From Chaenocephalus aceratus (lineage: Eukaryota > Chordata > Actinopteri > Perciformes > Channichthyidae), in assembly GCA_023974075.1 (NCBI GenBank), contig CM043799.1:8457250-8521249 (forward strand): 64,000 nt of DNA, given 5' to 3'. Below the pieces are notes generated by a model, which did not search any database, was not told the origin of the DNA, and saw nothing but the letters and a program-made list of their open reading frames with translations. Positions 2,344-45,249 of this stretch are shown here, in pieces. Each line of letters opens with the position of its first letter. Positions within the stretch are counted from its first letter, which is position 1. The translations under genes were made by a program, and so were the position numbers.

Positions 2344-2655
2344 CCTGCAATACCCGGCATTTCAGTTGATCCCACTAGATGGCGCGCTCTAGACACAATT
2401 GACCTTTGCTGGAGTCTGGTCTATTCTCTGGCCCTACTCGGCAACCCGGCAAGATCAGGGAACCAAATATTTCACGCTTACATTGGAAGGGGCGAGATTA
2501 AACTGAGCAATAACAGTTCATGGCGAGTACGGCGAATACAAGTTGTAACAAGCAGTAGCGCTGAGCAAAGTGACTAGAACCACACATTTATTAAAAACTC
2601 TTATATAAAGTCAGGCAACACTAACCAGGCTTAGTGTGATTCTGTTTATTTGACC
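2344..2655. repeat. Left half of the target repeat split by the 42-kb unit
   Basis: From about 2540 the sequence (AAGCAGTAGCGCT.., then TCAGGCAACACTAACCAGGC, TGTGATTCTGTTTATTTG) matches the reverse complement of 28640-28780. It stops at the TSD ATTTGACC (2648-2655). The continuation of the same repeat is found at 44633 onward, on the other side of the 42-kb unit. Confidence 0.75.
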
Positions 2656-2690
2656 CAGCGCCATATAGATAGAAGAGTTACGACATCTCC
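2656..2690 (+). repeat. Left TIR of the 42-kb unit
   Basis: A 30-bp inverted repeat with 44603-44632 (one mismatch), immediately preceded by ATTTGACC at 2648-2655. Confidence 0.85.
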
Positions 2691-3808
2691 GTTCACTCCA
2701 ATGGACCAGTTTTTTTACAGCAATGGCGGATCGTGGAGCTCTCAATAGTTCCCCGGAAGTTAGCTTGCCGATGACTTGCGGGGCTATCTGCGGCTAACAG
2801 CACAGTAGAGTTGCAGCATACCGTTCGTGTTGGACTTTGAAAGGTAAGAAGACGTTTAAAGATGTATATTGCGGATATTATCAGCACATCTGAGTCAAAT
2901 TAACATGTGTATTAAAGGATGTTAGTGGATTCCGTGAAGATTATCCCTAAATCAGTAGATTTAGGGAACGTTTACAGATAACAGATTAGGCTAGGATTCC
3001 AGATAACGTAATAACACACGTTAACCACGAATAGCCCATTAATCCGTTCTCTTAATGTTATTTCAACCCAACGTTGTGGAATTAGAGAAAAGGGGCCTCT
3101 TAACGTGCTTTTATCTTGGGTGGAGGGAGTTAAATATTGGTTAAATATAACATTGGGGCGTGTGATTGTAGTGGGTGGAGGTGGTGAAATGAGGATATCC
3201 ATTTTGGAGTTCAAGCTAGTATAATATAGTTCACGTTACACAATAATAAGGAAGAGAGCTATTTTTGTGATACTTAGACTTCCAAACAGTAAACAAAAAC
3301 GTAATTTATGGGTGAGTGTTTTTAGCAGAGCCATATAATGTCCTTATGATTCTGTTGATTATTATCTGTCTGTATTATGTTGCAGCTCAGCTGATTTTGG
3401 ATTGATGGCAAAGGGAGAGGGACTTAAGTGAGAGTGAAAACACAAGGTAAGTTTCAAGGTAATGTCAGCAATTTCCCATCCTATAGGTTGCTAGATGTAT
3501 CTAACCCTTTCTCCTGTCTCCCTCTCTCAGCACAAGAACCCCAGGGGGATTCAATGGAGCCTGAATACCTGCAATGAGACCCTCACCCTGCACCTGAGTC
3601 TCAACTCCCAGAGTTTTGCAAGCCTCTCCCTGTTCCTTATTTTGATTAAACAGACGTTAAGCTTCCCAATGGTGTGGTCTTCGTTTTGTGAAAAATATGA
3701 TTACCTCACATATGTTGTTGTTGTCTTTTGTGATAGTTAAATTCCTCCTGCTGACTTGAGCCAGCCATTCTTTCTTCCTCTCTGTGTCAGTGGGGAAACT
3801 TTACATGT
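2691..3808 (+). other. 5' exon-like segments inside the 42-kb unit
   Basis: Just inside the left TIR is a GC-richer block with ATGGCGG (about 2724) and an ETS-like CCCCGGAAGT. A splice donor follows (exon end 2843, AAAG|GTAAGA). A second exon-like piece lies at 3386-3446 (acceptor TGTTGCAG, donor AAG|GTAAGT). A third begins at 3531 after the pyrimidine-rich acceptor TCCCTCTCTCAG. A fourth acceptor, TCCTCTCTGTGTCAG, ends at 3790, and the exon after it is cut by the retrovirus-like insertion at 3809. Reading frames in these pieces are short, so they look like untranslated leader exons of a gene carried by the unit. The product is unknown because everything beyond 3809 is displaced by insertions. 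Confidence 0.4.
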
Positions 3809-4277
3809 TGTAGGAGCAAACACAGTAGTGGTGGCTTAAAGCCCACCTCCGCTCCGCGGCGTCCGTTAGATGAGCCTGGTCAGATGTAATAAAAGAAGTT
3901 CAAAACGCATAAAAGTTATAACAATAATCTGATTTTAATGGTAAAAAACACAATACGAAATACAGAGTGCCCTGTAACAGAGCACTCCGGGCTCCCCGCT
4001 CTACTGCCGTGCGATACAGATATCGGGACCAGCCAGTCAGAAACAGGGGGCATTTTGCATGAATAAACAACAGTATATATAGACATATTTGGGGCGGAGA
4101 TGTGTGTCGGCTCTTCCGTCCCATTTTACTCCTAAGCGAATCAGAGAGTCCGTGGGGAGTAGTTGGGTCGGTTGCTCACTCCCCTAGGTGTTCTTAGGTG
4201 GATTCACTTTGGGTCGGGCCCAATACAGCGAATCAGAGTTCTGGGAAAAAGTATTTTTCTTCTGAACAGAGCGTGAG

Positions 4278-4621
4278 TGTCACGGTCGAGTGAAGGAAGC
4301 AGGACCCAAATGCAGATAACTTAAGAGAAACCCTTTATTATAAAGATATGCAGAGATACGGAACACTCACCGGTGAACTCCGTCACCAACAAACAATGAC
4401 CCAACACTGAATACAGGGAGGGGTAATCATGACAACGAGAAACAGCCGGGCAGGGGAGGAGAAACACAAGGACAACAGGTGAACACAATCGGGTAATCAG
4501 GGAGGGAAACAGAGAGAAAGCAGACAGGCAGGAAACGGGGGTGAACACTTAACACAATAAGACAGGAAACACACCAACACAGACAAAACTACAAACGTGA
4601 CATAACATGTGCATTGTGACA
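4278..4621 (-). repeat. 3' LTR of the Gypsy-like element
   Basis: 344 bp, matching 8138-8503 except for a 22-bp deletion after CCCAACACTGAA. It is followed by CCCCCCCCTC, the complement of the polypurine tract. Confidence 0.88.
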
Positions 4622-5069
4622 GAACCCCCCCCTCAAGGGACGGATTCCAGACGTCCCTAAAAAAAAAACAAAAAAAGTCCAAAACCCCAAGCAGGGTGGG
4701 CGGAGGGGGTCCGGAGGACGGGTCTTGGGCTGACAGCCCAGGAACACAGCGGAGGACCAGGAAGGGGTCACGGGCGGACGGCCCGGGGTCAAAACAGAGT
4801 CCAAGGTGGGGACCATGGAGGACCGAAGGCAGCGGTAGGAAGAGTCAGGGACCCGGGTCCGAGGGCGAAGGCAACGGCAGGAAGAGTCAGGGGGTCGGGC
4901 CCGAGGGAGAAGACCGCAGCTCTCAGGGGGTCGGGCACGAGGGCGAAGACCGCGGCTCTCAGGGGGCCGGGCTCGAGGGCGAAGACCGCGGCTCCCAGGG
5001 GGCCGGGCTCGAGGGCGAAGACCGCGGCTCTCTGGGGGCCGGGCTCGAGCCGGTGTCGACCAGACAGGA

Positions 5070-8000
5070 TCAGGAGGCCGGGCAGGAAAGCGCCGATGGG
5101 CCAGTTCCCGAGATCGGGCAGGACCCGGTGTCGGCCGGACAGAAACCGGAGCCGGTCGGACCGGCTTCGGCAAGATCCCCCACGGAAAAGGACCAGGAGT
5201 TGGCAGGAACCCCGGCGAGACCGGTGATGGACATGGGGCTGGCAGGGCCCCCGGTAGAACCTCCATTGGCACGGGATAAAGGGTTGGCAGGACCCCCGGC
5301 AGGGGAGTAGACGGCGGGACCTCCAACGACACAGGACACAGGGTTGGCAGGACCCCCGGCAGGGGAGTATTCTGCGGGACCTCCAACGGCACAGGACACA
5401 GGGTTGGCAGGACCCCCGGCAGGGGAGTAGACGGCGGGACCTCCCACGGCACAGGACACAGAGCTGGCAGGACCCCCGGCAGGGGAGTAGACGGCGGGAC
5501 CTCCAACGGGACAGGACACAGGGTTGGCAGGACCCCGGCAGGGGAGTAGACGGCGGGACCTCCAACGGCACAGGAGAAAGGATTGGCAGGACCCCCGGCA
5601 GAAGAGTATTCGGCGGGACCTCCAACGACACAGGACACCGGGTTGGCAGGACCCGCGGCTGGGGAGTAGACGGCGGGACCTCCAACGGCACAGGACACCG
5701 GGTTGGCAGGGCCCCCGGCAGGGGAGTAGACGGCGGGACCTCCAACGACACAGGACACAGGGTTGGCAGGACCCCCGGCAGGGGAGTAGACGGCGGGACC
5801 TCCAACGGCACAGGACACAGAGCTGGCAGGACCCCCGGCAGGGGCGTAGACGGCGGGACCTCCAACGGGACAGGACACAGAGCTGGCAGGACCCCCGGCA
5901 GGGGAGTAGACGGCGGGACCTCCCACGGCACAGGACACAGAGCTGGCAGGACCCCCGGCAGGGGAGTAGACGGCGGGACCTCCAACGGGACAGGACACAG
6001 GGTTGGCAGGACCCCCGGCAGGGGAGTAGACGGCGGGACCTCCAACGGCACTGGACACAGAGCTGGCAGGACCCCCGGCAGGGGAGTAGACGGCGGGACC
6101 TCCAACGGGACAGGACACAGGGTTGGCAGGACCCCCGGCAGGGGAGTAGACGGCGGGACCTCCAACGGCACAGGACACAGAGCTGGCAGGACCCCCGGCA
6201 GGGGAGTAGACGGCGGGACCTCCAACGGGACAGGAGAAAGGGTTGGCAGGACCCCCGGCAGAAGAGTATTCGGCGGGACCTCCAACGACACAGGACACCG
6301 GGTTGGCAGGACCCGCGGCTGGGAGTAGACGGCGGGACCTCCAACGGCACAGGACACCGGGTTGGCAGGGCCCCCGGCAGGGGAGTAGACGGCGGGACCT
6401 CCAACGACACAGGACACAGGGTTGGCAGGACCCCCGGCAGGGGAGTAGACGGCGGGACCTCCAACGACACAGGACACAGGGTTGGCAGGACCCCCGGCAG
6501 GGGAGTAGACGGCGGGACCTCCAACGACACCTGCGCAGGGGCCCGAACAGGGAATGGAGAGGGAACTCGAGCGGAGACCCGAGAGGGGACTCGAGAGGAG
6601 ACTGGAGAGGGGACTCCAGAGGGGACTAGAGAAGGGAACACGAGAGGGGATTTGAGAGGGGAACTAAAGAGGGGACTCGAGGAGGGACCAGAGGAGGGAC
6701 CAGAGGAGGGAACTCGAGAGGGAACTCGAGAGGGGACTCGAGGGGGAACTGGAGAGGGAACTTGGGATGGAAACAGAGAGGGAAGTTGAGAAGGGACTAC
6801 AGAGGGGACTCGAGGGGGAACTGGAGAGGGAACTTGAGATGGGAACAGAGAGGGGACTCGAACAGAGACTAAAGAGGGGACTAGAGGAGTAACTAACGAA
6901 GGGAACTCGAGAGGGGAACTAGAGAGGGGACTCGAGGAGGGACTAGAGGAGGGACTAAAGGAGGGCCTAAAGGAGGGACTAAAGGAGGGAACTGGAGAGG
7001 GGACTCGAGGGGGAACTGGAGAGGGAACTTGAGATGGAAACAGAGAGGGGACTCGAGAAGGGACTACAGAGGGGACTAGAGGAGAAACTAGAGGAGGGAC
7101 TAGAGGAGTAACTAAAGAAGGGAACTCGAGAGGGGAACTAGAGAGGGGACTCGAGGAGGGCCTAAAGGAGGGAACTCGAGAGGGAACTGGAGAGGGAACT
7201 TGAGATGGAAACAGAGAGGGGACTCGAACAGGGACTAAAGAGGGAACTAGAGGAGGGACTAGAGGAGTAACTAGAGAAGAGAACTCGAGAGGGGAACTAG
7301 AGAGGGGACTCGAAGGGGAACCAGAGGAGGGAACCCGAGATGGGACCGTGGCAGCCGGGACCAGATCCGGGTCTGGAACCAAGGCAGCTGGGGTCGGGAA
7401 CATGGCTGCTGGGCCCAGAACCGGGGCCGAAACCCTGACTGCAGGGACCGGAATAGCAGCCAGAAACATGGCTGCTGAAGCCAGAATCCTGTCTATAAGC
7501 TCCAGCTCCGACGCCGGAAACACGGCCGTATAGGGCGCTCCCGGAGCCTGGACCATAGCCGCTGGGGCCAGCCCTGGAGCCGGAAACATGGCTGCGGGAG
7601 CCTGCACTGGGGCAGGAACCATGGCTGCTGGGGCCGAAACCGTGGCTGCTGGGGCCGGAACCGTGGCTGCTGGGGCCAGGACTGAGGCTGGAACCATGGC
7701 TGCTGGCGCCTGTACTGGGACCATGGCTGCTGGGGCCCGGGCTCCTTGTCTGGCCTTGCGACGACTCCTCTTAGCAGCCGCCTGAATGCTCCGTGGGCCT
7801 CCATAAGCCTGACGAGTTCCAGCATAAGACTCATGAACAGGAGCAGGAACTGGGGAAGAAGCAGAGGTTGACTCCAGACGGAACACTCCGAGACGTCTGT
7901 AGTCCGCAGGCTGGAACTCACACCTCCAGAGGAAGTCCAACAACCAGTCAGGCAAGAATTCCACCAAGTCGGGCTTCTCCATCGCCAACCGGTGCGCCTC

Positions 8001-8135
8001 AACCAGGGCGGCCTCCCTCAGCCGAACACTGGACGCCTCCCTCCACCAATCGCGGCAACACTCCAAAGGAATAGAAAGCTGTTGCAGCTCCACCTCAAAA
8101 GGGTCATCTGCTGGGTCCATTTGTGGTTGGGTCAT
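5070..8135 (-). CDS. Gag-like N-terminus fused to long tandem repeats
   Basis: 1021-codon open frame beginning 2 bp inside the 5' LTR. A more family-like start is the MDPADDPFEVELQQL methionine 5 codons in, because Sushi/V-clade Gypsy Gag proteins often begin MDPA. Residues 1-130 are ordinary sequence with a Trp-rich segment (CRDWWREA, LPDWLLDFLWRCEF). The rest is low complexity: Ala/Pro repeats (APAAMVPAP), then PSLVPSRVPSLFPSQVPSP-type repeats, then about 21 copies of a 60-bp unit. The 60-bp unit has no stop in any minus-strand frame, so single-base indels change frame without ending translation. No zinc knuckle or enzyme motif was seen. It may be a decayed Gag kept open by chance or a functional spacer. 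Confidence 0.55.
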   Translation of the reverse strand: MTQPQMDPADDPFEVELQQLSIPLECCRDWWREASSVRLREAALVEAHRLAMEKPDLVEFLPDWLLDFLWRCEFQPADYRRLGVFRLESTSASSPVPAPVHESYAGTRQAYGGPRSIQAAAKRSRRKARQGARAPAAMVPVQAPAAMVPASVLAPAATVPAPAATVSAPAAMVPAPVQAPAAMFPAPGLAPAAMVQAPGAPYTAVFPASELELIDRILASAAMFLAAIPVPAVRVSAPVLGPAAMFPTPAALVPDPDLVPAATVPSRVPSSGSPSSPLSSSPLEFSSLVTPLVPPLVPSLVPVRVPSLFPSQVPSPVPSRVPSFRPSSSPLSSSPLEFPSLVTPLVPPLVSPLVPSVVPSRVPSLFPSQVPSPVPPRVPSPVPSFSPSFRPSFSPSSSPSSSPLSSSPLEFPSLVTPLVPSLVSVRVPSLFPSQVPSPVPPRVPSVVPSQLPSLFPSQVPSPVPPRVPSRVPSRVPSSGPSSGPSSSPLFSSPLKSPLVFPSLVPSGVPSPVSSRVPSRVSARVPSPFPVRAPAQVSLEVPPSTPLPGVLPTLCPVSLEVPPSTPLPGVLPTLCPVSLEVPPSTPLPGALPTRCPVPLEVPPSTPSRGSCQPGVLCRWRSRRILFCRGSCQPFLLSRWRSRRLLPCRGSCQLCVLCRWRSRRLLPCRGSCQPCVLSRWRSRRLLPCRGSCQLCVQCRWRSRRLLPCRGSCQPCVLSRWRSRRLLPCRGSCQLCVLCRGRSRRLLPCRGSCQLCVLSRWRSRRLRPCRGSCQLCVLCRWRSRRLLPCRGSCQPCVLCRWRSRRLLPCRGPCQPGVLCRWRSRRLLPSRGSCQPGVLCRWRSRRILFCRGSCQSFLLCRWRSRRLLPCRGPANPVSCPVGGPAVYSPAGGPASSVSCAVGGPAVYSPAGGPANPVSCAVGGPAEYSPAGGPANPVSCVVGGPAVYSPAGGPANPLSRANGGSTGGPASPMSITGLAGVPANSWSFSVGDLAEAGPTGSGFCPADTGSCPISGTGPSALSCPAS
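5281..6530. repeat. 60-bp tandem repeat array (about 21 copies)
   Basis: Unit begins GGGTTGGCAGGACCCCCGGC and includes AGTAGACGGCGGGACCTCC. The period is 60 bp, with one-base deletions near 5531 and 6321 and variants at a few positions (AACGACA/AACGGCA/AACGGGA). On the minus strand one frame reads VGGPAVYSPAGGPANPVSC; the other two are open too. Confidence 0.95.
6540..7330. repeat. Purine-rich degenerate repeats (GAGGGGACTCGAGA type)
   Basis: Imperfect 15-18-bp units such as GAGAGGGGACTCGAGAGG and GAACTTGAGATGG, repeated at a higher-order spacing of roughly 190 bp. They encode PSLVPSxVPS-like repeats on the minus strand of the Gypsy-like element. Confidence 0.85.
7330..7790. repeat. Ala/Pro-coding degenerate repeats
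   Basis: Recurring CCATGGCTGCTGGGGCC units. On the minus strand they give APAAMVPAPAATV-type peptide between the unique N-terminus and the VPS repeats. Confidence 0.75.
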
Positions 8136-8137
8136 TC

Positions 8138-8503
8138 TGTCACGGTCGAGTGAAGGAAGCAGGACCCAAATGCAGATAACTTAAGAGAAACCCTTTATTA
8201 TAAAGATATGCAGAGATACGGAACACTCACCGGTGAACTCCGTCACCAACAAACAATGACCCAACACTGAACACAGACAGAGACAAGACTAAATACAGGG
8301 AGGGGTAATCATGACAACGAGAAACAGCCGGGCAGGGGAGGAGAAACACAAGGACAACAGGTGAACACAATCGGGTAATCAGGGAGGGAAACAGACAGAA
8401 AGCAGACAGGCAGGAAACGGGGGTGAACACTTAACACAATAAGACAGGAAACACACCAACACAGACAAAACTACAAACGTGACATAACATGTGCATTGTG
8501 ACA
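8138..8503 (-). repeat. 5' LTR of the Gypsy-like element
   Basis: 366 bp, direct repeat of 4278-4621. On the minus strand it is followed at once by GAATGACCCAACCACAAATG, a leader resembling that of fish V-clade Gypsy elements. The primer-binding site is not a standard TGG-type one that I can assign. Confidence 0.88.
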
Positions 8504-8852
8504 GTGAGAGCCTCGGAAGTAAACAAGGTCAGTCACTTTTTATCTTACACCTGGGTTCACTCCTTTACTTTCCCAAGGAATATTTCACACACTCTATTCT
8601 TTCCCAGACAATCAAACATTGTACGCAGATATATTGGTACATTACTTCTGAACAGAGTGTGAGTAGACAAGGGCAGAGTCAATCTTTATCTTCCACCTGA
8701 CTTCACTCCTTTACTTTCCCAAGGAAGATTTCACACAAACTATTCCTTCCCAGACAATCAAACATTGTACACAGATATATTGGTGCTTGAGATTATATTG
8801 GCCCCAGAAATAACCTTGAAAAGAATATGTGTGTGTGCTGGTGGGAGGAGGT

Positions 8853-8969
<117 letters not shown>

Positions 8970-9164
8970 GTATCTGGGTCAGTGAGTGTAGGTGAGCAAA
9001 GAATGTGTGTGTGTGCTGGTGGAAGGAGGTGTATGTGTGTGTAACAGGGTATCTGGGTCATTGAGTGTAAGTGAGAAGGTTTATATATATAGGATTACTT
9101 TAAAACAGTCCCAAATAATACATGTTCACTTCAATACAGTTCAAGATAATACCTGTTTACTTTA

Positions 9165-10982
9165 GGCAAGGCAAGGCAAGGCAAGTTTATGTATATAGCA
9201 CTTTTCAACGCAAGGCAATTCAAAGTGCTTTACAAAAGAAAATGAAAGACATTAAGCATTAAAAAAGAAAAGCTAATAAAATAAACATTAAGGAAAAATA
9301 CATGGATAAAAGTTACAGTGCAGTCTAAAATATGAATAGTTCAATTAAACATTACAAGAAAAAGTACATGGATAAAAGTTACAGTGCAGTTTAAGATATG
9401 AATAGTTCAATTAAAAGCAGCGACAAAAAGAAAAGTCTTCAGCCTGGATTTAAAAGTAGTAAGAGTTGCAGCGGACCTGCAGGTTTCTGGGAGTTTGTTC
9501 CAGATATTTGGAGCATAATAACTGAACGCTGCTTTACCATGTTTAGTTCTGACTCTGGGGACAGAAATCTGACCAGTCCCTGAAGACCTGAGAGATCTGG
9601 ATGGTTCATAGTTTAGCAGGAGGTCAGTAATGTATTTTGGGCCTAAACCATTCAGTGCTTTATAAACCAGCAGCAGTATTTTGAAATCTATTCTTTGACA
9701 CACAGGAAGCCAGTGTAAAGACTTCAGAACAGGGGTGATGTGATCCACTTTCTTAGTGTTAGTGAGGACTCGAGCAGCGGCGTTCTGAATCAGCTGCAGC
9801 TTTCTAATAGATTTTTTAGTGAGACCTGTGAAGACACCATTGCAGTAGTCCAGTCTACTGAAGATAAAGACATGGACAAGTTTTTCCAAATCCTGCTGTG
9901 ACATTAGTCTTTTAATCCTAGATATATTCTTTAGGTGATAATAGGCTGATTTAGTAACTGTTTTAATGTGACTGTTGAAACTCAGGTCAGAGTCCATGAC
10001 TACACCTAGATTTCTGGCTTTATCTGTTGGTTTGAACATTGCAGACTGAAGCTCAGCGCTAACTTTTAAACGTTCTGCCTTGGCTCCAAAAACCATTACC
10101 TCAGTTTTATCTTTGTTTAATTGGAGAAAGTTCTGACACATCCAGTCATTGATTTGTTCAATGCACTCACTCAGTGTTTGAATTGGAGCATAGTCTCCTG
10201 GTGAAATTGTTACGTAAATTTGTGTGTCATCTGCATAGCTATGGTAACTTATTTTGTTGTTCTTCATTATCTGAGCCAGTGGTAGCATGTAGATGTTAAA
10301 GAGAAGAGGCCCCAAGATGGAGCCTTGAGGAACCCCACATGTCATATTTGTCAACTCAGATGTGTATTTACCTATAGAAACAAAGTTGTTTCTATCCTTT
10401 AAGTAGGATTTAAACCAATTTAGAACTGTTTCCGAAAGTCCCACCCAGTTTTCCAGTCGGTCTAGTAATATGCTGTGGTCAACAGTGTCAAATGCAGCAC
10501 TGAGATCTAATAATACTAACACTGAAGCTCTGCCACTGTCTGTGTTTAAGTGGATGTCGTTAAAGACCTTTACAAGAGTAGTCTCAGTGCTGTGGTTTGG
10601 ACGAAAGACTGACTGGAACACATCGAAACAACTATTTAAATGCAAGAAATTACTCAACTGTTGAAAAACAACTTTTTCAATGATTTTACCTAGAAATGGC
10701 AGGTTTGATATGGGCCTGTAATTGTTCATTACTGAAGCATCTAGATTATTCTTTTTTAAGAGCGGTTTAATGACTGCAGTTTTCAGGGCCTGTGGAAAAA
10801 TACCTGAGTGAAGAGATTTGTTTACTATATGAAGTAGTTCTGAGGCCATGCAAGGCAAAACATCTTTGAAAAATCCTGTTGGAATAATATCAAGGCAGCA
10901 GGAGGAGGATTTCAGAAGTTGTATAATGTCCTCTAGGTTTTTATCATTAATCTGATGGAATTGTGTCATGATGTCTGAATTG
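9165..10982 (-). mobile_element. 5'-truncated L2/CR1-clade LINE
   Basis: Inserted in the copy A LTR with a short duplication ACTTTA (9159-9164, 10983-10988); copy B is the empty site. On the minus strand the element starts inside the reverse-transcriptase ORF. It ends in a 3' UTR whose last bases are short direct repeats (GGCAAG units on the plus strand, 9165-9184), the tail type of L2/CR1 elements, which lack a poly-A tail. Confidence 0.92.
9407..10969 (-). CDS. L2-type reverse transcriptase (5'-truncated ORF2)
   Basis: 520 codons open to a natural stop. RT motifs in order: NNYRPISNLPFLGKIIEK, FRPNHSTETTLVKV, LVLLDLSAAFDTVDH (motif A aspartate), GVPQGSILGPLLFNIY (motif B), HSYADDTQIY with Y245-A-D-D (motif C), then the L2-type C-terminal region LDYCNGVFTGLTKKSI..QNAAARVL and HWLPVCQRIDFK. 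The endonuclease half is absent because of 5' truncation. The first methionine is an internal one and not a biological start. The RT itself carries no internal stop or frameshift, so the insertion looks fairly young. Confidence 0.9.
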   Translation of the reverse strand: MTQFHQINDKNLEDIIQLLKSSSCCLDIIPTGFFKDVLPCMASELLHIVNKSLHSGIFPQALKTAVIKPLLKKNNLDASVMNNYRPISNLPFLGKIIEKVVFQQLSNFLHLNSCFDVFQSVFRPNHSTETTLVKVFNDIHLNTDSGRASVLVLLDLSAAFDTVDHSILLDRLENWVGLSETVLNWFKSYLKDRNNFVSIGKYTSELTNMTCGVPQGSILGPLLFNIYMLPLAQIMKNNKISYHSYADDTQIYVTISPGDYAPIQTLSECIEQINDWMCQNFLQLNKDKTEVMVFGAKAERLKVSAELQSAMFKPTDKARNLGVVMDSDLSFNSHIKTVTKSAYYHLKNISRIKRLMSQQDLEKLVHVFIFSRLDYCNGVFTGLTKKSIRKLQLIQNAAARVLTNTKKVDHITPVLKSLHWLPVCQRIDFKILLLVYKALNGLGPKYITDLLLNYEPSRSLRSSGTGQISVPRVRTKHGKAAFSYYAPNIWNKLPETCRSAATLTTFKSRLKTFLFVAAFN

Positions 10983-11020
10983 ACTTTAATACAGTTTAGA
11001 ACAATATCTGTTTACTTTAA

Positions 11021-11440
11021 TCCCCCTTTTGATCTCACCTTCAGAGATCAACTTATACACAGCATTTGAAACATAACCACTGTCATTCTTTTCTACTGTG
11101 TCTGTCCCCCAACATTTATATAAATCCATCAGTCGCTGGGATTTAGAGCATTTTAAACCTTTAGGAACAGTCCACCATAACAACTTCTTATGACAGTGGA
11201 GGGAGACCAAAATATGTTAAACAAAAATTGTACTTGTCGGCTGAGTCATCGTGCTCGTCTTCCTCCGACGCGTAAGCCAACAAGGGCATTTGGTGGGAAG
11301 GGGCAGCTTCTCCCTCAAAAAATGGGTTATTAAAACAAAGTTCCTCAAAAATGGGATATTAAAACAAAGTCCACACCGGCTATATCAACCTGTTTCAGCG
11401 GAGAGTGTAGTCCCCTGTGCCGTCTTGGCTTGCCGTGTCT
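11021..11440 (-). mobile_element. Retrovirus-like copy A, internal region next to the 3' LTR
   Basis: Polypurine tract at 11021-11030, followed on the minus strand by about 400 bp matching 31361-31812 of copy B. A short open frame is present in both copies (about 11210-10986 here), but I cannot assign it to a retroviral gene. Confidence 0.55.
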
Positions 11441-15621: not shown

Positions 15622-15720
15622 TCTTCAAAAAGGAAAAAAGAGAAACAGAAACAATTGAATGATCTAACGACCAAACTGAAAACATTAGAACAAAAACATG
15701 TGGAATTAAACAACCCCTAA

Positions 15721-19495: not shown

Positions 19496-19525
19496 GTAAG
19501 TTAGTTGTCTTAAGTGTCAATGTTA

Positions 19526-34013: not shown

Positions 34014-34465
34014 GCGTAGCCACTTTTACTCCACTACATGTATTTATAACCTTTAGTAACTTTACAGATTTGGATTAATTATGTGAAATATAATCAAGTG
34101 TTAAATCAGACTTTAGTTCCACCTGGAGTAAATTCACCAGCTACCCTGCAGTATACAAAGTCATTCAAACTAGCTGCACCTTTACCAGCTTTGAGAACAC
34201 TTTCATGATCAATCATTATAAAACATATCATATATATTATTCTGAAATGGACCAATCTGCACAATAAATACTTTTACTGTCGCTACTTTCACTATATTTT
34301 GATGATAATACTTTTCTACTTTTATTTGAGGAACATTTTGAATGCAGGACTTTTACTGTAACAGAGTATTCCTACACTCTGGTACTTCTACTTTTACCTA
34401 AGTACAAGACCTGAGTACTTCTACTTTGACTCAAGTACAATATCTGATTACTTCGACAACCTCTG
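34014..34465. repeat. MITE-like repeat with AGTACTTCTACTTTTACTCA tandem units, copy 1
   Basis: Ends ..CTTCGACAACCTCTG, a hAT-type terminus (CAGAGGTTGTCG inverted). The inner end contains tandem units of about 30 bp (ACTTCTACTTT..AAGTACAA). Further copies are at 35906-36403 (direct) and 43402-44005 (inverted). Confidence 0.7.
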
Positions 34466-34775
34466 ATTAATGGTTGATTTCCAAATGTTCTGTTGGTGCG
34501 TGGATGATAAAATAATAGTGTTTGATTGTATTGCCTTACGTATGCAGCTATTTGCCTGTGTTTAGAAACATAATTAAACATACCATGGACACACATTCAA
34601 ACAATTTTCCATTTATTAAACATTGCAGATTAACAATTAACAAGTCCTTGTTATAACTTCGATTCTCAATAAACTTCCCCCATGTCACAACACCTCACAA
34701 GTTATAATATCAGTAGGACTCAATAATGGACTCTCAGACACTGCACTCTCATCTTCGATTAAACAACTGCACGCC

Positions 34776-35898
34776 ATGTGGAAACAGAGTACTCTCTGCT
34801 TTCCAAACGCCACCATTTACATCCCCATCATAAACTTTTCCAACAGTCTGACCATCCACCAGCAGACTGCACTCACCACACTCAACAACACCATAGCTTC
34901 CAAATACAACTTCATACCGGAAATAAACCCACTACTCTTCCATGTCACTTCACGTGATAACATACACTGGACCCTGCAGACGGCCGAGATGTTACTCAGG
35001 TACTGGAAGCAGCATTTAAACTACTGAACGGGGATCATAATTGCATTACAACTCCCCACCGCTCAAATATAACCAACCTCTCTGCCGTTTTCTCCCCCAC
35101 GGCCGCACAGCTGGAGCTACTGGAAAAAGGTTTATCATTCATTCCAACACCCAAACTCCCCACCCGACCGGAGATCAGGGCGGACCTCCACAGGCGGATT
35201 AAGATCATTGACCACTTCCTGGGGAGCCGGGGGTGGGAGCCTGTTCTGTTCACCGGACCGTCCACCTGGGAACCACACACGGCAACATCAACACCTGAAA
35301 TAACACAACTAATTAATAAAAATCTACTAGCACTCACACATTGGCGCCCCCTTCCACATAGAACACACAAGATTAGCCAGGAACAATTACAAATTATTAA
35401 AACATTAGGTAACAGCCAACACATAGTCATCAAACCTGCAGATAAGGGGAGCCAAATAGTCATACAAGATAGGGACAATTATATATTGGAAGCACATAGG
35501 CAGTTAAATGACAACACATACTACAGATCACTGACGCACCCACTTCAATTGGAAACACAAACACTAGTTAGGGACATTACAGCAACACTTTACACTAACA
35601 AAATCATAAACAAAAAACAATATCTGGATGGTCCGGAGGAGCCCAGGCCCCGCCTCTTCTACCTGCTCCCCAAGATCCACAAGCCTGTTGAGACGTGGAC
35701 GGTCCCCTCTGTGGCTCCGGTCGGCCGCCCCATTATCAGCGACTGCGGTTCAGAATCCTACAACATAACAGAATACATCGATCATTTTATTAATCCCTTA
35801 TCAAAACTCCACCCCAGTTATCTCAGAGACACTTATGATTTTGTTAACAAAATAAAAAACCTCACAGTACCCAGCCACACTCTCATTTTCTCCAGAGA
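34776..35898 (+). pseudogene. Penelope-like element, 5' half (copy 1)
   Basis: Two coding stretches. 34776-35027 contains FPNATIYIPIINFSN and DNIHWTLQTAEMLLRYW. After a frame change at about 35010-35030, 35030-35898 contains GLSFIPTPKLPTRPEIRADL, VIKPADKGSQIVIQD, YLLPKIHKPVETWTVPS and PVGRPIISDCGSES. PKIHKP..GRPI and the KPADKG block are diagnostic of Penelope-like reverse transcriptases. The copy stops before the catalytic SIDIVSLYTN motif, where a MITE-like repeat follows directly, so RT motifs A-C and the GIY-YIG nuclease are absent. The same frame change is present in copy 2. Confidence 0.85.
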
Positions 35899-35905
35899 AA
35901 ACTCT

Positions 35906-36403
35906 CTAGAGTTTAAAGCGTAGCCACTTTTACTCCACTACATGTATTTATAACCTTTAGTAACTTTACAGATTTGGATTAATTATGTGAAATATAATCA
36001 AGTGTTGAATCAGACTTTAGTTCCACCTGGAGTAAATCCACAAGCTACCCTGCAGTATACAAAGTCATTCAAACTAGCTGCACCTTTACCAGCTTTGAGA
36101 ACACTTTCATGATCAATCATTATAAAACATATCATATATATTATTCTGAAATGGACCAATCTGCACAATGAATACTTTTACTGTCGCTACTTTCACTATA
36201 TTTTGATCAGAATACTTTTCTACTTTTATTTGAGGAACATTTTGAATGCAGGACTTTTACTGTAACAGAGTATTCCTACACTCTGGTACTTCTACTTTTA
36301 CCTAAGTACAAGACCTGAGTACTTCTACTTTGAATCAAGTACAAGATCTGAGTACTTCTACTTTTACTCAAGTACAAGATCTGAGTAGTTCTACTTTTAC
36401 TCA
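35906..36403. repeat. MITE-like repeat, copy 2
   Basis: A direct repeat of 34014-34450 (GTTTAAAGCGTAGCCACTTT start), abutting the Penelope-like truncation on the left and the 3' end of the RING-like gene on the right. Confidence 0.8.
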
Positions 36404-36409
36404 GGGCCC

Positions 36410-38411
36410 TTACAGTCCAGCAACCTGGGTATACACTGGCTCCTGATCCCTGCACTTAAGGCATTGGGGAGATGTTATCCTCCACACAGAGCCTGCATCC
36501 CACGATGTTTCGGGAGCAGGAGGAGGAAAACATTTGTCCAGTCATTGTGTCTTTAAAAAGAAAAGAGACAGGTTTTTAAACATATGCTGATAGTTACTGA
36601 TTGATGTCATGGACTGTATTTCTGAAGCCTGCACTCAAACTGAGAAAGATACTGTTCAGAAATAGATTTGAAAAGATTAACTTAGAATAATATGAAAATC
36701 CGGCACCTATACGTTTTATTTTTTAAATACTGTTTGTTACACTGAGCATTATTCAAAGAGAGGATGAAAACAATACCTCTGCAGATCAAACAGCTAAATG
36801 CCTGTTTGACTTCTGGCCTTGGTACTACCAAGTCCTGGCTGGCTGCCACTATGTCAGAAATCTTCCTGGTGACTTCTTCCAGGCCTTGGGATGCATCCAG
36901 CAGTTCCTCCACCTTGTTGCTCAGTGTGTGGACTTCAGATAGCTCATTTCTATTTTTGTCACATTTTGAAAATAGTTTAAGTATTAGCAGTCATTTAAGA
37001 TGTTTTCTTCATTTTATTAGAGATAAAAGAAAGTTATGTATTCCATGGCAAATTAGATGATGCTAAATAAACAAGAGCATGTGGAAACATTTCATTTCTT
37101 GAAATTACATTTAAAGGATATTGTTTATAAATGCTGATTGTCGAACGGATGTTGACTGTGACTCTTCATACCATGTGCTGACCCACAGAGTACTGAGGTG
37201 TGCTACAGTGAAGCCCATGCGTATGCATGTCTGCCCCAGATGGCAAACGTATATAGCCCTTGAGCTGCAAAAATGCTAAATGGCCAGAAAGCAGCCTCTT
37301 TCAAATAATGAGAGGGTTTTGCCAGTCTGTTGTTAGCGAGTAAAGTGAAATGCTGCATATCGTGACCCTTCAGTTTGAGTGCTAGCCCTTCTTTACACAT
37401 TACATTATTTCCCCTATTGATAGACCAGTTCAAACCTTCTCCAGACAAAATCAGTTTTGTTATCCAACCACACCTGCTTCTTGAGCCTCTTCGACGCCAT
37501 TGCCTGAAAGCAGAGCTCTCAACAGCATGGATCTTTCTTGCATTCGGCTTCCAGTACAAAGACCCTTTATGAGAGAAATAAAGAGTAAAGACATGTGAAA
37601 ATAAAATGTTAAAAGGGGCACATTGTTGTACTGATATCACTTTCAGACCCTTATCTTTTGCACAAATGAAAATGAAATATAGAATAATAATATTTACCAA
37701 TTGTCCCTTCAGACTCAACGATTTCATTCCCAACGGTGTCTGTAAGGATGTACTCCTCACTGTCTCCCATGGCCACATTCACTTTTCCTGTGATCAGTGG
37801 AACGCTTTCCTCTGATTCAACAAATCTGATCATGACCACCCTTGTGGAAACAATCTTTCCATCCATTATTTCTGACACATGTTTTGACCTGTAATGCAAA
37901 AAGAACAGTGACACACATTTAGTTAGCAACATGGACTAAAACCTAACATTCTAAAGCATGCCAACATATGAAATGGGCATCTCATTACCTTTGAAATGAC
38001 CGAGGGGTGCCAATTGATCTAGTCAACTGACTCATGTTTGCAGTAGACATTGGCTGACTATGACGAAAAGAAAACGGCCGTGACTCAGCTGGCTCTGTCT
38101 GGATCCTTTGAGTCTCCAGGTTCTTCCCCATGAACCTCATAATGACCGTGATCAGAGAGATCCAGGGAGCAGAAACACCCACACCACCGTTGTGTCCTTG
38201 GGCAAGACACTTCACCCGAATTTGCTCCTGTGGGTATTTTCCACAGTAGATGACCATTACATGTATGTATGATCTGTATGTGTAATGTATATTTGTAAAG
38301 CGCTTTGAGAGTCATTGATAAAGCGCTATAATAAATATAAGGATTATTATTATCCAATGGAAAAACCGCAATGTTGGCAGCATCAGTGATGAAAAGGCTA
38401 CCTGCGTTGAC
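36410..38411 (-). pseudogene. Multi-exon gene fragment with C-terminal RING-like module
   Basis: Minus-strand exons joined in frame by GT-AG introns: 38057-37989 (SQLTRSIGTPRSFQ), 37888-37698 (SKHVSEIMDGKI, VVMIRFVESEESVPLITGKV), 37564-37474 (SLYWKPNARKIHAVESSAF), 36949-36777 (coiled-coil-like NKVEELLDASQGLEEV, then FSCLIC), and from 36550 (RDTMTGQMFSSSCSRNIVGC). A likely earlier exon begins at 38411 (GSLFITDAANIAVFPL) and is cut by a SINE/LINE tail. The last exons give C-x2-C .. C-x6-GC-x2-C, then after a one-base frame change near 36475, QCLKCRDQEP, completing an eight-ligand-like RING/zinc module as in a multicopy fish gene family I recognise only by pattern. Without the shift the frame stops at 36456. 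The 5' exons and start are not found. Five consecutive phase-compatible junctions make it a genuine gene or recent pseudogene. The role is unknown; RING-like proteins are often ubiquitin ligases, but that is inference. Confidence 0.6.
38180..38353 (+). repeat. LINE/SINE 3' tail (RTE-type)
   Basis: TTGTGTCCTTGGGCAAGACA, then AAAGCGCTTTGAGAGTCATT, AAAGCGCTATAATAAATATA and an ATT-repeat end. This is the shared 3' end of fish RTE-like LINEs and their SINEs. It sits inside or beside an exon of the RING-like gene. Confidence 0.7.
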
Positions 38412-38666
38412 CTAAAAGCAAATAACAGGTTATATATATTTCACAATTTCCTTTTAAACAATCACTACATTGTTCTTTGTCTTTCCATGTGTGTCCTTGC
38501 ATAATTTCTTCCTTTGTGTCGTTTCTTCAATGGTGGTAGTGGTTTATTACATTTTATTAAAAAAACATGCAGTTAGTAGTTAATCCTCAAGATTATTTGT
38601 ATGCCTATATCAGACCTCAGTATCAATCTAAGTTTCTTCTTGCTTCGCTTCTGAAAAGTTCAATTA
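38412..38666. other. Unassigned sequence upstream of the RING-like gene fragment
   Basis: Probable intron of the gene (acceptor TTTGCTTTTAG adjoining 38411). No further upstream exon recognised. Confidence 0.35.
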
Positions 38667-38667
38667 T

Positions 38668-39009
38668 ACACTGAACAAAAATATAAACGCAACACTTTTG
38701 TTTTTGCTCCCATTTTTCACGAGGTGAACTCAAAGATCTAAAACATTTTCTATAAACACAAAATAACCATTTCTCTCAAATATTGTTCACAAATCTGAAA
38801 AAAAATCTGTGATAGTGAGCACTTCTCCTTTGCCGAGATAATCCATCCCACCTCACAGGTGTGGCATATCAAGATGCTGATTAGACAGCATTATTATTGC
38901 ACAGGTGTGCATTAGGCTGGCCACAATAAAAGGCCACTCTGAAACGTGCATTTTTGCTTTATTGGGGGTGTCTGGGGGGGTCCGAAAACCAGTCAGTATC
39001 TGGTGTGAG
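38668..39009 (+). mobile_element. Tc1/mariner-like element, terminal fragment
   Basis: Begins at a TA with CACTGAACAAAAATATAAAC and continues with TTTTTGCTCCCATTTTTCAC, CCTTTGCCGAGATAATCCAT, CAGGTGTGGCATATCAAGAT and AACCAGTCAGTATCTGGTGT. This is the long terminal region of a Tc1/mariner family widespread in fish. It stops abruptly at about 39009; transposase and the other end are missing. Confidence 0.8.
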
Positions 39010-40201
<1,192 letters not shown>

Positions 40202-40587
40202 TGTTACGGTGTGCAGGAAGCAGGACCCAAATGCAGACCAGAGTAAAAATAATTCCTTTATTCCAAGGCTATATATACACAAAGACAGAACAGGACACTC
40301 ACCGAAGACCACGTCAATACACAAGACGAACCGACACTGAACACAGGAAGAGACAAGACTAAATACAGGGAGGGGTAATCACAAGACGAGAAACAGCCGG
40401 GCAGGGGAGGAGAAACACAAGGGCCACATGTGAACACAATCAGACAACTAGACACACCAGGGAAACGGGAGGAAAACCACAGGGAAAAGGACCAGACAAT
40501 ATACCCAGAGGAAAACATGACAGGGAGAACAGCAAAACACCCAAACCAAGACATAGAAAACGTGACAATAACACAATAATCGTAACA
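40202..40587. mobile_element. Solo LTR (Gypsy-like, related to 4278-4621)
   Basis: Starts TGTTACGGTGTGCAGGAAGC, ends ..AATAATCGTAACA, with 5-bp duplication TTATT (40197-40201, 40588-40592). It shares AGGACCCAAATGCAGA and CAGGGAGGGGTAATCA with the LTRs of the Gypsy-like element but is clearly diverged. Internal region lost by LTR-LTR recombination. Confidence 0.88.
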
Positions 40588-40650
40588 TTATTAAAGTTAA
40601 TAAAACATGTTTAAGTGGTGGGAGGCGGACCCATCAATTATATTTTTCAT

Positions 40651-41853
40651 TTAGTCCGCCCGGGTCAATGGTGCCCAGACGATGGATCCACCTCCGCCCC
40701 GCCTCTGGCCCGTGCTCCAGCTGCTGCTGCTCTCCAGGCCCATAGACTGTACATTGTGGAGGCCATGGAGTTTAAAATGGTTGTATAAAACGCTCGTGCC
40801 GTCCCCGTCTCTAATTCTATATTGGTGTTGTTTAATTCTGAGGCTGATCTCATTGCGCGTTTCCCCCACATAGAGTCTCTGGCAGGCCTTGCACCTAATT
40901 GCATAAATAGCGTTTTTTGTGTTAGGTATCAAGGCCTGCCGTACATTGCTCCCCTCTCGAGAGAAGGGATTGAAAAAGTGGGGAAGGCGAACGAAACCAA
41001 CCTCAGAGACCCGAGGCGCATCCCTAGTTGTAATGCTTTTATTTAGTTTTGTGTGGACCAGGAGGTCCTGGAGATTTTTGTTACGCCAGTAGGCAGAGAT
41101 CAGCCGGCACGGTCGCCGCGCGTCACAGTCACCCCTGGCCCCCTCAAAATTGGCCTTTAGTTTGTCTAAAAGGCTGGTCAGGCTCCCTGAGTAGGTTGTG
41201 ATGAGGGGGACCAGGGTAGGGCCGGACGGCCGGGTGGAGATGTCTTTATATTTCTCCATGAAGGTGCGGCTGACCTCCGCCTTAATGCTTCTAAGGAAGC
41301 GCCTCGAATAGCCCCTAGGTCTCAGCGCACTAAAGAGGATTCTGGTAGCCTCCTCCACATCCTCCGTGAGGGTGCATATCCTGTGGAAGCGGATCAGCTG
41401 AGACTTAATCAGACCTCTGTACGTGTGCCCAGGGTGATAGCTGGTTTTATGGAGGAGTGCGTGGCGATCTGTGCCTTTAAAGAAAACCCTAGTGGTAAGT
41501 GTATTGCTGTGGTCGCTGGAGCTGCGGAAAAAGACCCCAGTGTCGAGGAACTCCACAGTGTGTGTATTTAACTGGTGTTTGAATTTTATTTTAGGGTGAT
41601 GTGTGTTGAGGATGTCTGAGAAGGTGAGGAAGTCCTGTTCTGTGTGATGCCAGAGGCCAAAGATGTCATCCAAGTACCGGAAGTACAGAAGGGGTTTGAG
41701 GGGGAGTTTAGTGAAAACCGTTTCCTCCCAATGGGCCAGGTAAATATCCGCGTAGGCTGGCGCATATTTCCAGCTCATCGCACAACCACACAGCTGGAGG
41801 TAGTGTTTATTGTTAAACATGAAGTCATTGCGGGTGAGTGTGAGGTGGAGCAA
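40651..41853 (-). CDS. Penelope-like RT C-terminal part with GIY-YIG endonuclease (copy 2)
   Basis: 400 codons open. LQLCGCAMSWKYAPAYADIY (RT motif B region), LLYFRYLDDIFGLWHH with Y60-L-D-D (motif C), HTVEFLDTGVFF and YRGLIKSQLIRFHRIC are typical of Penelope-like RTs. A GIY-YIG nuclease occupies residues 315-375 (AIYAIRC-x2-C-x3-YVGET, SLRIKQHQYRI, YNHFKLHG), with the CxxC insertion characteristic of Penelope elements. The ORF begins just after a frameshift that separates motif A. The two catalytic halves are otherwise undamaged. Reading on the minus strand it continues the inverted-repeat arm. Confidence 0.92.
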   Translation of the reverse strand: MLHLTLTRNDFMFNNKHYLQLCGCAMSWKYAPAYADIYLAHWEETVFTKLPLKPLLYFRYLDDIFGLWHHTEQDFLTFSDILNTHHPKIKFKHQLNTHTVEFLDTGVFFRSSSDHSNTLTTRVFFKGTDRHALLHKTSYHPGHTYRGLIKSQLIRFHRICTLTEDVEEATRILFSALRPRGYSRRFLRSIKAEVSRTFMEKYKDISTRPSGPTLVPLITTYSGSLTSLLDKLKANFEGARGDCDARRPCRLISAYWRNKNLQDLLVHTKLNKSITTRDAPRVSEVGFVRLPHFFNPFSREGSNVRQALIPNTKNAIYAIRCKACQRLYVGETRNEISLRIKQHQYRIRDGDGTSVLYNHFKLHGLHNVQSMGLESSSSWSTGQRRGGGGSIVWAPLTRAD

Positions 41854-41935
41854 CTGAATAATTTGGCTGTCGGGTCTGGATGGGTCTGGGTTTTTATTGA
41901 AGGAGTGCTGAATTGCGGTGAGGCCAAGTGGGGTT

Positions 41936-43091
41936 TCAATGTTGGTATACAGTGAGACTATGTCTATGGAGAAAATGAGTGTGGCTGGGTACTGTGAGGT
42001 TTTTTATTTTGTTAACAAAATCATAAGTGTCTCTGAGATAACTGAGGTGGAGTTTTGATAGGGGATTAATAAAATGATCGATGTATTCTGTTATGTTGTA
42101 GGATTCTGAACCGCAGTCGCTGATAATGGGGCGGCCGACCGGAACCACAGAGGGGACCGTCCACGTCTCAACAGGCTTGTGGATCTTGGGGAGCAGGTAG
42201 AAGAGGCGGGGCCTGGGCTCCTCCGGACCATCCAGATATTGTTTTTTGTTTATGATTTTGTTGGTGTAAAGTGTTGCTGTAATGTCCCTAACTAGTGTTT
42301 GTGTTTCCAATTGAAGTGGGTGCGTCAGTGATCTGTAGTATGTGTTGTCATTTAACTGCCTATGTGCTTCCAATATATAATTGCCCTATCTTGTATGACT
42401 ATTTGGCCCCCCTTATCTGCAGGTTTGATGACTATGTGTTGGCTGTTACCTAATGTTTTAATAATTTGTAATTGTTTCTGGCTAATGTTGTGTGTTCTAT
42501 GTGGAAGGGGGCGCCAATGTGTGAGTGCTAGTATATTTTTATTAATTAGTTGTGTTATTTCAGGTGTTGATGTTGCCGTGTGTGGTTCCCAGGTGGACGG
42601 TCCGGTGAACAGAACAGGCTCCCGCCCCCGGCTCCCCAGGAAGTGGTCAATGATCTTAATCCGCCTGTGGAAGGCGTGGAGGTCCGCCCTGATCTCCGGT
42701 CGGGTGGGGAGTTTGGGTGTTGGAATGAATGATAAACCTTTTTCCAGTAGCTCCAGCTGTGCGGCCGTGGGGGAGAAAACGGCAGAGAGGTTGGTTATAT
42801 TTGAGCGGTGGGGAGTTGTAATGCAATTATGATCCCCGTTCAGTAGTTTAAATGCTGCTTCCAGTACCTGAGTAACATCTCGGCCATCTGCAGGGTCCAG
42901 TGTATGTTATCACGTGAAGTGACATGGAAGAGTAGTGGGTTTATTTCCGGTATGAAGTTGTATTTGGAAGCTATGGTGTTGTTGAGTGTGGTGAGTGCAG
43001 TCTGCTGGTGGATGGTCAGACTGTTGGAAAAGTTTATGATGGGGATGTAAATGGTGGCGTTTGGAAAGCAGAGAGTACTCTGTTTCCACAT
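41936..43091 (-). pseudogene. Penelope-like element N-terminal and central RT (copy 2)
   Basis: Minus strand: 43091-42840 matches the first ORF of copy 1. 42840-41936 carries the KPADKG, PKIHKPVETW and GRPIISDCGSES motifs up to VPSHT. The frame then breaks; in the adjacent frame the motif-A stretch IFSIDIVSLYTNI is readable (about 41985-41945) before the 400-codon ORF. Together with 40651-41853 this is a nearly complete element with two or three frame changes. Confidence 0.87.
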
Positions 43092-44425
43092 GGCGTGCAG
43101 TTGTTTAATCGAAGATGAGAGTGCAGTGTCTGAGAGTCCATTATTGAGTCCTACTGATATTATAACTTGTGAGGTGTTGTGACATGGGGGAAGTTTATTG
43201 AGAATCGAAGTTATAACAAGGACTTGTTAATTGTTAATCTGCAATGTTTAATAAATGGAAAATTGTTTGAATGTGTGTCCATGGTATGTTTAATTATGTT
43301 TCTAAACACAGGCAAATAGCTGCATACGTAAGGCAATACAATCAAACACTATTATTTTATCATCCATGCACCAACAGAACATTTGGAAATCAACCATTAA
43401 TCAGAGGTTGTCGAAGTAATCAGATCTTGTACTTGAGTAAAAGTAGAAGTACTCAGATATTGTACTTGAGTGAAAGTAGAAGTAATCAGATATTGTACTT
43501 GAGTGAAAGTAGAAGTACAGTACTCAGATCCTGTACTTGAGTAAAAGTAGAAGTACTCAGATATTGTACTTGAGTCAAAGTAGAAGTACTCAGGTCTTGT
43601 ACTTAGGTAAAAGTAGAAGTACCAGAGTGTAGGAATACTCTGTTACAGTAAAAGTCCTGCATTCAAAATGTTCCTCAAATAAAAGTAGAAAAGTATTATC
43701 ATCAAAATATAGTGAAAGTAGCGACAGTAAAAGTATTTATTGTGCAGATTGGTCCATTTCAGAATAATATATATGATATGTTTTATAATGATTGATCATG
43801 AAAGTGTTCTCAAAGCTGGTAAAGGTGCAGCTAGTTTTAATGACTTTGTATACTGCAGGGTAGCTTGTGGATTTACTCCAGGTGGAACTAAAGTCTGATT
43901 TAACACTTGATTATATTTCACATAATTAATCCAAATCTGTAAAGTTACTAAAGGTTATAAATACATGTAGTGGAGTAAAAGTGGCTACGCTTTAAACTCT
44001 AAAATATAGTTACAGAAAGACAGACAGACAGACATTGAGATAGAAAGACATCGAGACAGATATATACATAGAAAGACAGACATACGGACAGACTGTCTTC
44101 TGTACTTGTATGTATGAATATAATAATATACGTATATTTGTAACGCAGTCTAAAGGCAAAGACGTAGAACCTTTATTTTTGAAGAGTACAGCGCAAGCAT
44201 AGGGCACACTAGCCAATCAGAAGCAAGGAGGTGCTGGAGACACACCCACTTATGGAAACGAAACATTGAGTGGTATACTTGTTTTAACAGTAAGAACAGA
44301 AAAACGAAAAAACGAGCTGAATTTTCGTTTTGGGGCAAAATTGAAAAACCAAAAAACGTCCCATTTCTGCTTCTTTTTTTCCCAAATAGAACGAAAAAAC
44401 AAACGGTTAAAACGTACCTTCGTCA
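41960..44425 (-). repeat. Right arm of the large inverted repeat
   Basis: Reverse complement of 33590-35900. It extends to within about 210 bp of the right TIR of the 42-kb unit. Confidence 0.85.
43402..44005. repeat. MITE-like repeat, copy 3 (inverted)
   Basis: Begins CAGAGGTTGTCGAAGTAATC, followed by 5-6 tandem units (TTGTACTTGAGTAAAAGTAG AAGTACTCAGA type). It has more tandem units than copy 1. Confidence 0.8.
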
Positions 44426-44602
44426 ACTACACATATCGATATGTTGTATAAATATTGCAAATCAAAACCTTTATTGACCACTAATTACCAAAAATTGCAT
44501 TTCTATCCTGGTATTAATGCATTCAAATGGCCCGCCACGAACTTCCGGGAAACTATTGAGTCTCCCTGAACCACGTGACGATCAAGCATTTTGGACTTCC
44601 GT

Positions 44603-44632
44603 TGTCGCAACTCTTCTATCTATATGGCGCTG
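44603..44632 (-). repeat. Right TIR of the 42-kb unit
   Basis: Inverted repeat of 2656-2685 with one mismatch, followed by ATTTGACC at 44633-44640. Subterminal E-box (CACGTG, about 44573) and ETS-like CTTCCGGG (about 44543). Confidence 0.85.
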
Positions 44633-45249
44633 ATTTGACCTTACTTTAATAACCATCCGTTCACTGTTAATGACCATTGTGAAAAGGAAGACGTTTTCCT
44701 GTTGTTTTGTATTATTGCAGCTATCGGATGGATTCAATACATGGGCTACATGTGGCCATCACAAGTAAAATCATAACGAAAACTACACCGGTAAAATATG
44801 TGTGTAGAAAACGGCTTATGCCAAAATATGATAGCAACAAGTAGTCAAGATAGTCTGATTAGCTAACATCTGTAGAATGCCAGAGAAACTTTCATAACAG
44901 CGTTGTGATGCCAAACAGCTTTCAGACTAAAACACATTCACTTATGGGGATGGGGGATATTTGTCAGCTGCTTGTGACAGTCAGACAAGGAAAACTTTAC
45001 AGCGGCCGCTGCCGCGAGTTAACGGGAGAGTAACTCCGGTAGACGAGCAGCACTGCAGCGGGCAGTAATGCAGCTGAACCACATTAATAAACAATTTATG
45101 GACAAAGGTATAAGGTTGGAGAAGTAGTTCTTTAATTTAATCTGGCTTCGTATAATTAAAAACTACCAGACACAGTCCTCTATTGATGTTGTTGTGAGCG
45201 GTGTTGTGGAGAAAATCAGCGACGTAAAATGCTGTGTGGGTCATAAGAA
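44633..45249. other. Right flank of the 42-kb unit
   Basis: 44633-44700 (TTACTTTAATAACCATCCGT) continues the target repeat begun at 2540-2655. The rest shows no gene or recognised repeat. Confidence 0.55.

Follow-up and report, generated by a model that had tools for sequence, protein, structure and literature searches.

Transposons of the hAT type have short terminal inverted repeats (TIRs) beginning with CAG, and Tol2 is a fish hAT. In a macrotransposon the two ends come from different copies of an element, and Teratorn combines a piggyBac-like transposase with herpesvirus genes and uses a TTAA site. ToxhAT of fungal wheat pathogens is a 14-kb element whose TIRs lie ~25.6 kb apart in P. nodorum through a later insertion (PMC6737239), Ac macrotransposons of maize hold large DNA between hAT ends (PMC9910405) and Teratorn comprises giant teleost transposons of 41–182 kb that arose by piggyBac/herpesvirus fusion and have short TIRs (PMC6431247). 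Here we describe a 42-kb unit bounded by hAT-like ends in the icefish Chaenocephalus aceratus, located in a 64,000-nucleotide stretch of contig CM043799.1 of assembly GCA_023974075.1 (positions 8,457,250–8,521,249; hereafter referred to as the window). A comparison with other genomic copies indicates that the unit is almost certainly a single copy of an apparently non-autonomous, hAT-type element of ~2.1–2.2 kb, swollen by three nested insertions.

Among the systems compared, ToxhAT is the closest published parallel (PMC6737239), as it too has hAT-type TIRs that a subsequent insertion pushed apart. It differs in having a cargo gene and in having moved between species, whereas the icefish unit has a core of 2.1 kb, a swelling of ~20-fold, more insertions and no cargo recognised in its core. 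With the Ac macrotransposons (PMC9910405), the unit shares large DNA between hAT ends and an 8-bp target-site duplication (TSD), but it is one element split by insertions, and the window holds no second pair of its TIR. With Teratorn (PMC6431247), it shares a fish host, the size range of 41–182 kb and short TIRs, but its TSD is 8 bp long, and no Teratorn-type genes were found among the Pfam matches of the open reading frames (ORFs) and frames scanned. Vertebrate non-autonomous hATs and hAT-type miniature inverted-repeat transposable elements (MITEs) share with it the 8-bp TSD, the short CAG-initial TIR, the many copies and the lack of a coding domain in the scanned core stretches. Among open-licence titles listed by searches that were not directed at the locus, none deals with this site or with a fish hAT of 42 kb.

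Ends and target site of the 42-kb unit

The unit is bounded by two 30-bp TIRs that agree at 29 of 30 positions and read CAGCGCCATATAGATAGAAGAGTT(A/G)CGACA, each flanked on its outer side by the TSD ATTTGACC, which is identical at 8/8 positions (Table 1). Further inside lies a subterminal 20-bp inverted repeat (2741–2760 and 44541–44560, with one position searched as C or T). A 22-mer of the TIR occurs in the window at the two ends only when up to three mismatches are allowed, and 100 dinucleotide shuffles gave none. We also compared the window with 40 order-1 Markov resamplings of itself, seeking a perfect 8-bp direct repeat with an exact 7-bp TIR seed; the best TIR next to such a repeat matched at 18/18 positions in the real sequence and at 14/18 in the resamplings. 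Pairs with a palindromic 8-mer were removed from the real list, because they derive from the long inverted arms within the unit. A chance origin of the TIR/TSD pair is excluded.

When the two outer flanks are joined, they give a match of ~124 bp at 87% on the minus strand of the window, and the two flank halves together cover an element-free paralogue of the target. At the insertion site this paralogue reads ATTTGTACC, one base longer than the TSD, and it sits within the 42-kb unit itself, inside the insertion complex I1 described below. The TIR with one mismatch, the perfect 8-bp duplication and the empty-site paralogue, placed at 28640–28770 on the minus strand, had all been proposed in an earlier sequence-only reading of this DNA, and all three are borne out.

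A 2.1-kb core shared with other copies

We searched the Chaenocephalus aceratus assembly (1.06 Gb, 3032 contigs) with the unit's first 101 bp. This left end has at least 41 matches, a lower bound because 40 of 1472 first-look candidates were scored; they comprise the window, at least 39 other places that match most of the query, and one 28-bp partial match. Twenty-seven of the 39 other loci were fetched, 20 as stretches of ~10 kb and seven of ~2.6 kb, and 12 were left out; a set of 3.1-kb stretches (L001–L008) represents the window and seven loci already contained in L009–L015 and was not recounted. The left end is present in all 27 fetched copies, and both ends lie within the fetched stretch in eight of them, with spans of 650, 2168, 2220, 2530, 2975, 3760, 5711 and 9177 bp. 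Six of these eight copies have a perfect 8-bp TSD and two have a TSD with one mismatch. In the 650-bp copy, most of the internal sequence is missing.

Removal of the insertions I1, I2 and I3 from the unit leaves a window core of 2101 bp. In L015 (2220 bp) and L017 (2168 bp), the two shortest copies with a complete core, this core aligned as one uninterrupted block over 2101/2101 positions. Core pieces 1 and 2 are contiguous in L015, L017 and L010, and pieces 1–4 are arranged as in an uninterrupted copy, in both order and orientation, and add up to a single element; the start of piece 4 was judged by the I3 duplication. The interior common to the copies amounts to 2.1–2.2 kb, with none of the large shared interior of a giant hAT.

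These results bear on the remaining claims of the sequence-only reading. Its proposed check, in which the insertions are removed and the remainder is compared with other copies, yielded the shared 2.1-kb core in L015 and L017, and the uninterrupted core elsewhere, together with the three insertions, supports its view that the unit grew inside one DNA transposon. It rightly anticipated nested insertions and an inverted duplication, which do explain the size, but its 10–12-kb core was about five times too large compared with 2.1 kb, and a hAT-type element with a true length of 42 kb does not hold up, as the element is 2.1–2.2 kb in other genomic copies.

Two further observations concern the family. 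Copy L026 (G000:C16:4789460-4799455) is another swollen member, with 9177 bp between its ends and the perfect TSD GTTTGGCC. The copies L009, L021, L022 and L023, none of which shows a right end in the fetched stretch, lie on four separate short contigs and agree in block structure and in their left TSD, GATGAGAG; a single insertion has probably been counted four times here, owing to a duplicated locus or to unmerged haplotypes.

Three insertions within the copy

The core is interrupted at three positions, by I1, I2 and I3, and most of the nested elements carry target duplications (Table 1). The insertion site of I1 is uninterrupted in L015 and L010, and also in L017 with one base different. 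As in a long terminal repeat (LTR) retroelement, I1 has a direct pair of LTR-like copies, at 3809–11440 (interrupted) and 30281–32037, and a target duplication. The LTR-like copies differ at 18/1412 sites, indels aside (1.27% in total, ~0.6% each), with the four compared parts ranging from 0/305 to 10/460 differences. The first copy is interrupted by a 4.2-kb LTR retrotransposon and a short long interspersed element (LINE) copy. This retrotransposon (4278–8503) is very young, its LTRs differing at 1/345 aligned sites (0.3%) plus a 22-bp gap. It also contains a 1036-residue ORF over ~21 copies of a 60-bp tandem repeat, and this ORF has no Pfam match.

Table 1. Features of the 42-kb unit, in window coordinates.
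Feature	Position	Strand	Target duplication or remark
Left TSD	2648–2655	.	ATTTGACC
Left TIR	2656–2685	+	
Core piece 1 (2.1-kb element)	2656–3808	+	Ends with ATGT copy
I1, 28.2 kb, LTR-type retroelement	3809–32037	- (as read)	ATGT, 3805–3808 / 32038–32041
LTR retrotransposon nested in I1	4278–8503	-	GTGAG
Short RVT_1-containing LINE copy, nested in I1	9165–10982	-	ACTTTA
LINE with RVT_1, nested in I1	14855–18750	+	99-bp duplicated flank, 95/99 identical
hAT relic with hAT C-terminal domain, nested in I1	19119–22284	+	GGTCAGTG
hAT-type element nested in I1	23266–27799	.	CTGACAAG, 8/8
hAT element nested in 23266–27799	23755–27074	-	ATAATTAT, 8/8
Target-site paralogue without element, inside I1	28644–28785	-	
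hAT-type MITE in I1	28899–29341	.	CTCTAGAC/CTCTTGAC, one mismatch
Core piece 2	32042–32714	+	
I2, 787 bp, solo-LTR-like (TGTTAG...ATAACA)	32715–33501	.	GTAT, 32711–32714 / 33502–33505
Core piece 3	33506–33579	+	
I3 complex, 10.8 kb, inverted arms	33580–44425	.	ACTA, 33576–33579 / 44426–44429
Fish RING-type protein gene fragment, between I3 arms	36413–38426	-	
Core piece 4 with right end	44430–44632	+	44432–44632 used in alignments
Right TIR	44603–44632	-	
Right TSD	44633–44640	.	ATTTGACC

The remaining occupants of I1 include several hAT-type elements. In the hAT relic (19119–22284), the TSD repeat reaches 12 bases and the left TIR is decayed. The hAT-type element at 23266–27799 has a relative at 51860–53211, and the element nested within it contains a zf-BED and a hAT dimerisation domain that do not share a reading frame. 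Four nested levels can thus be followed, each with a TSD: the unit (8/8), I1 (4/4), the element at 23266–27799 (8/8) and that at 23755–27074 (8/8).

I2 is in part 60–69% similar to a stretch of I1; the direct repeats concerned, 22729–23211 in I1 and 32545–33259 mostly in I2, are probably related LTRs. The inverted arms of I3, at 33580–36403 and about 40641–44425, may belong to a GIY-YIG/Penelope-type element and differ at 31/2316 sites, indels aside. Their GIY-YIG match lies just over the Pfam cut-off (25.2 bits versus 22.6; 23.0 in a second scan), and the Pfam scans of the arms gave no match to a reverse-transcriptase model.

Class of the element

The family resembles non-autonomous hAT elements: its TIR is short and starts CAGCGCC, and its TSD in the window is 8/8 identical. 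No transposase was matched by Pfam in core piece 1 (plus-strand frames) or in 32040–33569 (six frames), and no hAT transposase was found among nine ORFs from seven other copies, of which three matched RVT_1, one matched a Tc-type transposase, one had a chance-level match and four had no match. The hAT domains found in the window are those of nested elements. A degenerate TIR pattern had no match in viral contigs, nor did the TIR 22-mer in prokaryote genomes, as expected for a fish element.

IS3EU-type transposons, which have TA...TA ends and 6-bp TSDs (PMC10045372, PMC12730594), do not fit the 42-kb unit in either respect.

Formation of the unit and alternative explanations

The growth of the unit almost certainly proceeded as follows. 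A 2.1–2.2-kb copy inserted once, by cut and paste, into a short repeat, creating the 8-bp duplication ATTTGACC; its CAG-initial TIR and 8-bp duplication suggest that a hAT transposase acted in trans. I1 (28.2 kb), I2 (0.79 kb) and I3 (10.8 kb) landed inside the copy, at sites where other copies are uninterrupted and presumably after it had itself landed, and with two of the three insertions filled by further elements, its ends were pushed 42 kb apart.

Sequence divergence is consistent with this order. Nine other copies have over 1500 bp of core; the window core deviates from their majority at 33/2097 sites (1.57%), and each of the nine differs from all the other rows by 1.42–4.08%. Divergence thus decreases from the core (1.57%) to the I1 LTR-like copies (~0.6% each) and the LTRs nested in I1 (0.3%), an order of ages that fits the nesting and is the one predicted by growth after landing. 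The inserts therefore appear to be younger than the element copy, which probably grew after it had landed.

Several observations weigh against parts of this account. For I1 as an LTR retroelement, the target duplication is short (4 bp), the outer ends form no canonical TG...CA pair, and Pfam gave no match, to gag, pol, env or any other domain, in three frames of the minus strand of the three larger stretches of its interior. The right junction of I3 lacks four target bases that are present in other copies. The right end was not seen in 19 of the 27 fetched stretches, which were kept in the counts; these copies may be truncated, may be larger nests or may have been fetched too short, seven of the stretches being only 2.6 kb long. 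The hAT class rests on the termini and the TSD length, because no transposase was found in the scanned core. As for the ages, family structure contributes to the divergence measured for the core. The LINE inside I1 has a duplicated flank with differences at 4/99 sites, more than the I1 LTR-like copies, which runs counter to a strict age order. Moreover, cut-and-paste transposition leaves divergence unreset, so the dates are also compatible with a later move of the swollen unit.

Such a move, in which the swollen element came here in its full 42-kb length, nested cargo included, with transposase supplied in trans, is very improbable on the evidence at hand, and there is equally little reason to regard the unit, with its LTR complex, putative Penelope-type copies and RING fragment, as movable or moved as one in trans. 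Both ends, the subterminal repeats and the TSD are intact, and movement at this size is physically possible, since Tol2 carried a bacterial artificial chromosome of ~70 kb in transgenesis (PMC2768751) and excision of an Ac macrotransposon of 28 kb is reported in maize (PMC9910405). Against this, the copy's own divergence exceeds that of its inserts, and all eight other two-ended copies span at most 9.2 kb (9177 bp being the largest). In addition, a search with one I3 junction (36340–36470) revealed no second copy with these inserts: among the matches listed of 274 (40 of 606 candidates scored), only the window spans the query.

A giant hAT transposon with some 40 kb of gene content of its own is hardly credible. 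The TIR and TSD do bound 42 kb, and a RING-type gene fragment lies inside, but the core is 2.1–2.2 kb in other copies, with L015 and L017 refuting a larger one, and the RING fragment is broken and lies in I3, outside the core. Hardly any weight attaches, likewise, to the possibility that the ends come from two separate copies, joined by rearrangement or acting as a macrotransposon: the other left ends in the genome, at least 39, could supply the material, but the 8-bp TSD is perfect, the pieces are ordered and oriented as in one uninterrupted copy, and a second TIR pair is missing from the window. A joining of two elements' ends by rearrangement, the scenario that the sequence-only reading had set against its own, fails because a continuous 2.2-kb copy at another locus has both ends and because the two TSD copies agree.

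The 42-kb unit is an ordinary nest, in which the end signals are real and the 42-kb length is not the element's own.

RING-type gene fragment

The gene fragment between the I3 arms belongs to a family of ~320–360-residue fish proteins with a RING-like C terminus, for which Pfam RING scores are below the cut-off. The family was seen in notothenioids, gadids, cyprinids, cichlids and others; its proteins are mostly annotated 'uncharacterized', and one is named rnf8-A-like. The fragment is identical to Chaenocephalus aceratus P0006 over the two exon stretches that align by themselves, of 21 and 31 residues. Its frame is shifted in the RING exon. A role as cargo of the hAT-type element is ruled out: the fragment sits in I3, the window yielded no first exon for it and its 3′ end is interrupted. 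The gene model P0043 (Megalops) fuses 5′ exons of the RING gene to an integrase-core domain; as such an overlap concerns 1 of 47 integrase matches and 1 of 41 RING-profile matches, it offers thin support for a link between the gene and a transposon.

Surroundings of the unit

Outside the unit, the arms 2044–2655 and 44641–45875 begin CAGGG(G/C)TGGGCAAACTT. These inverted arms are ~83% identical, and their outer ends, at 2044 and 45875, are likely TIRs of an outer element, which suggests a further hAT-type element as the landing site of the 42-kb unit. We consider this outer element likely and not more, because the flanking 8-mers differ at 4/8 positions. The right outer arm holds a 382-bp solo-LTR-like insert (45442–45823) with the TSD CAAAT.

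Another element, at 45908–49005 and thus ~1.3 kb to the right of the unit, has a similar TIR (CAGAGCCCTAGAGATA...AAGAGTTACGAC). It has the TSD GGGTACCC/GGGTAACC and, in six frames, no Pfam match above the cut-off. Its kinship with the unit's element is likely but weak, because the similarity outside the TIR was reached by 7 of 300 shuffles for the two right sides and by 23 of 300 for the two left sides. Further to the right, a hAT-type element (59818–62355; TSD CTCTGAAC) is inserted in a LINE, with RVT_1 pieces on either side.

Significance

A TIR pair and a TSD alone can mimic a giant transposon where nested insertions fill a small one, and a search of the same genome with the ends of the element settles which of the two is present. 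The comparison defines a repeated 2.1-kb family in the icefish that looks hAT-type, and with four nested levels and a TSD at each, the locus allows successive insertions to be ordered.

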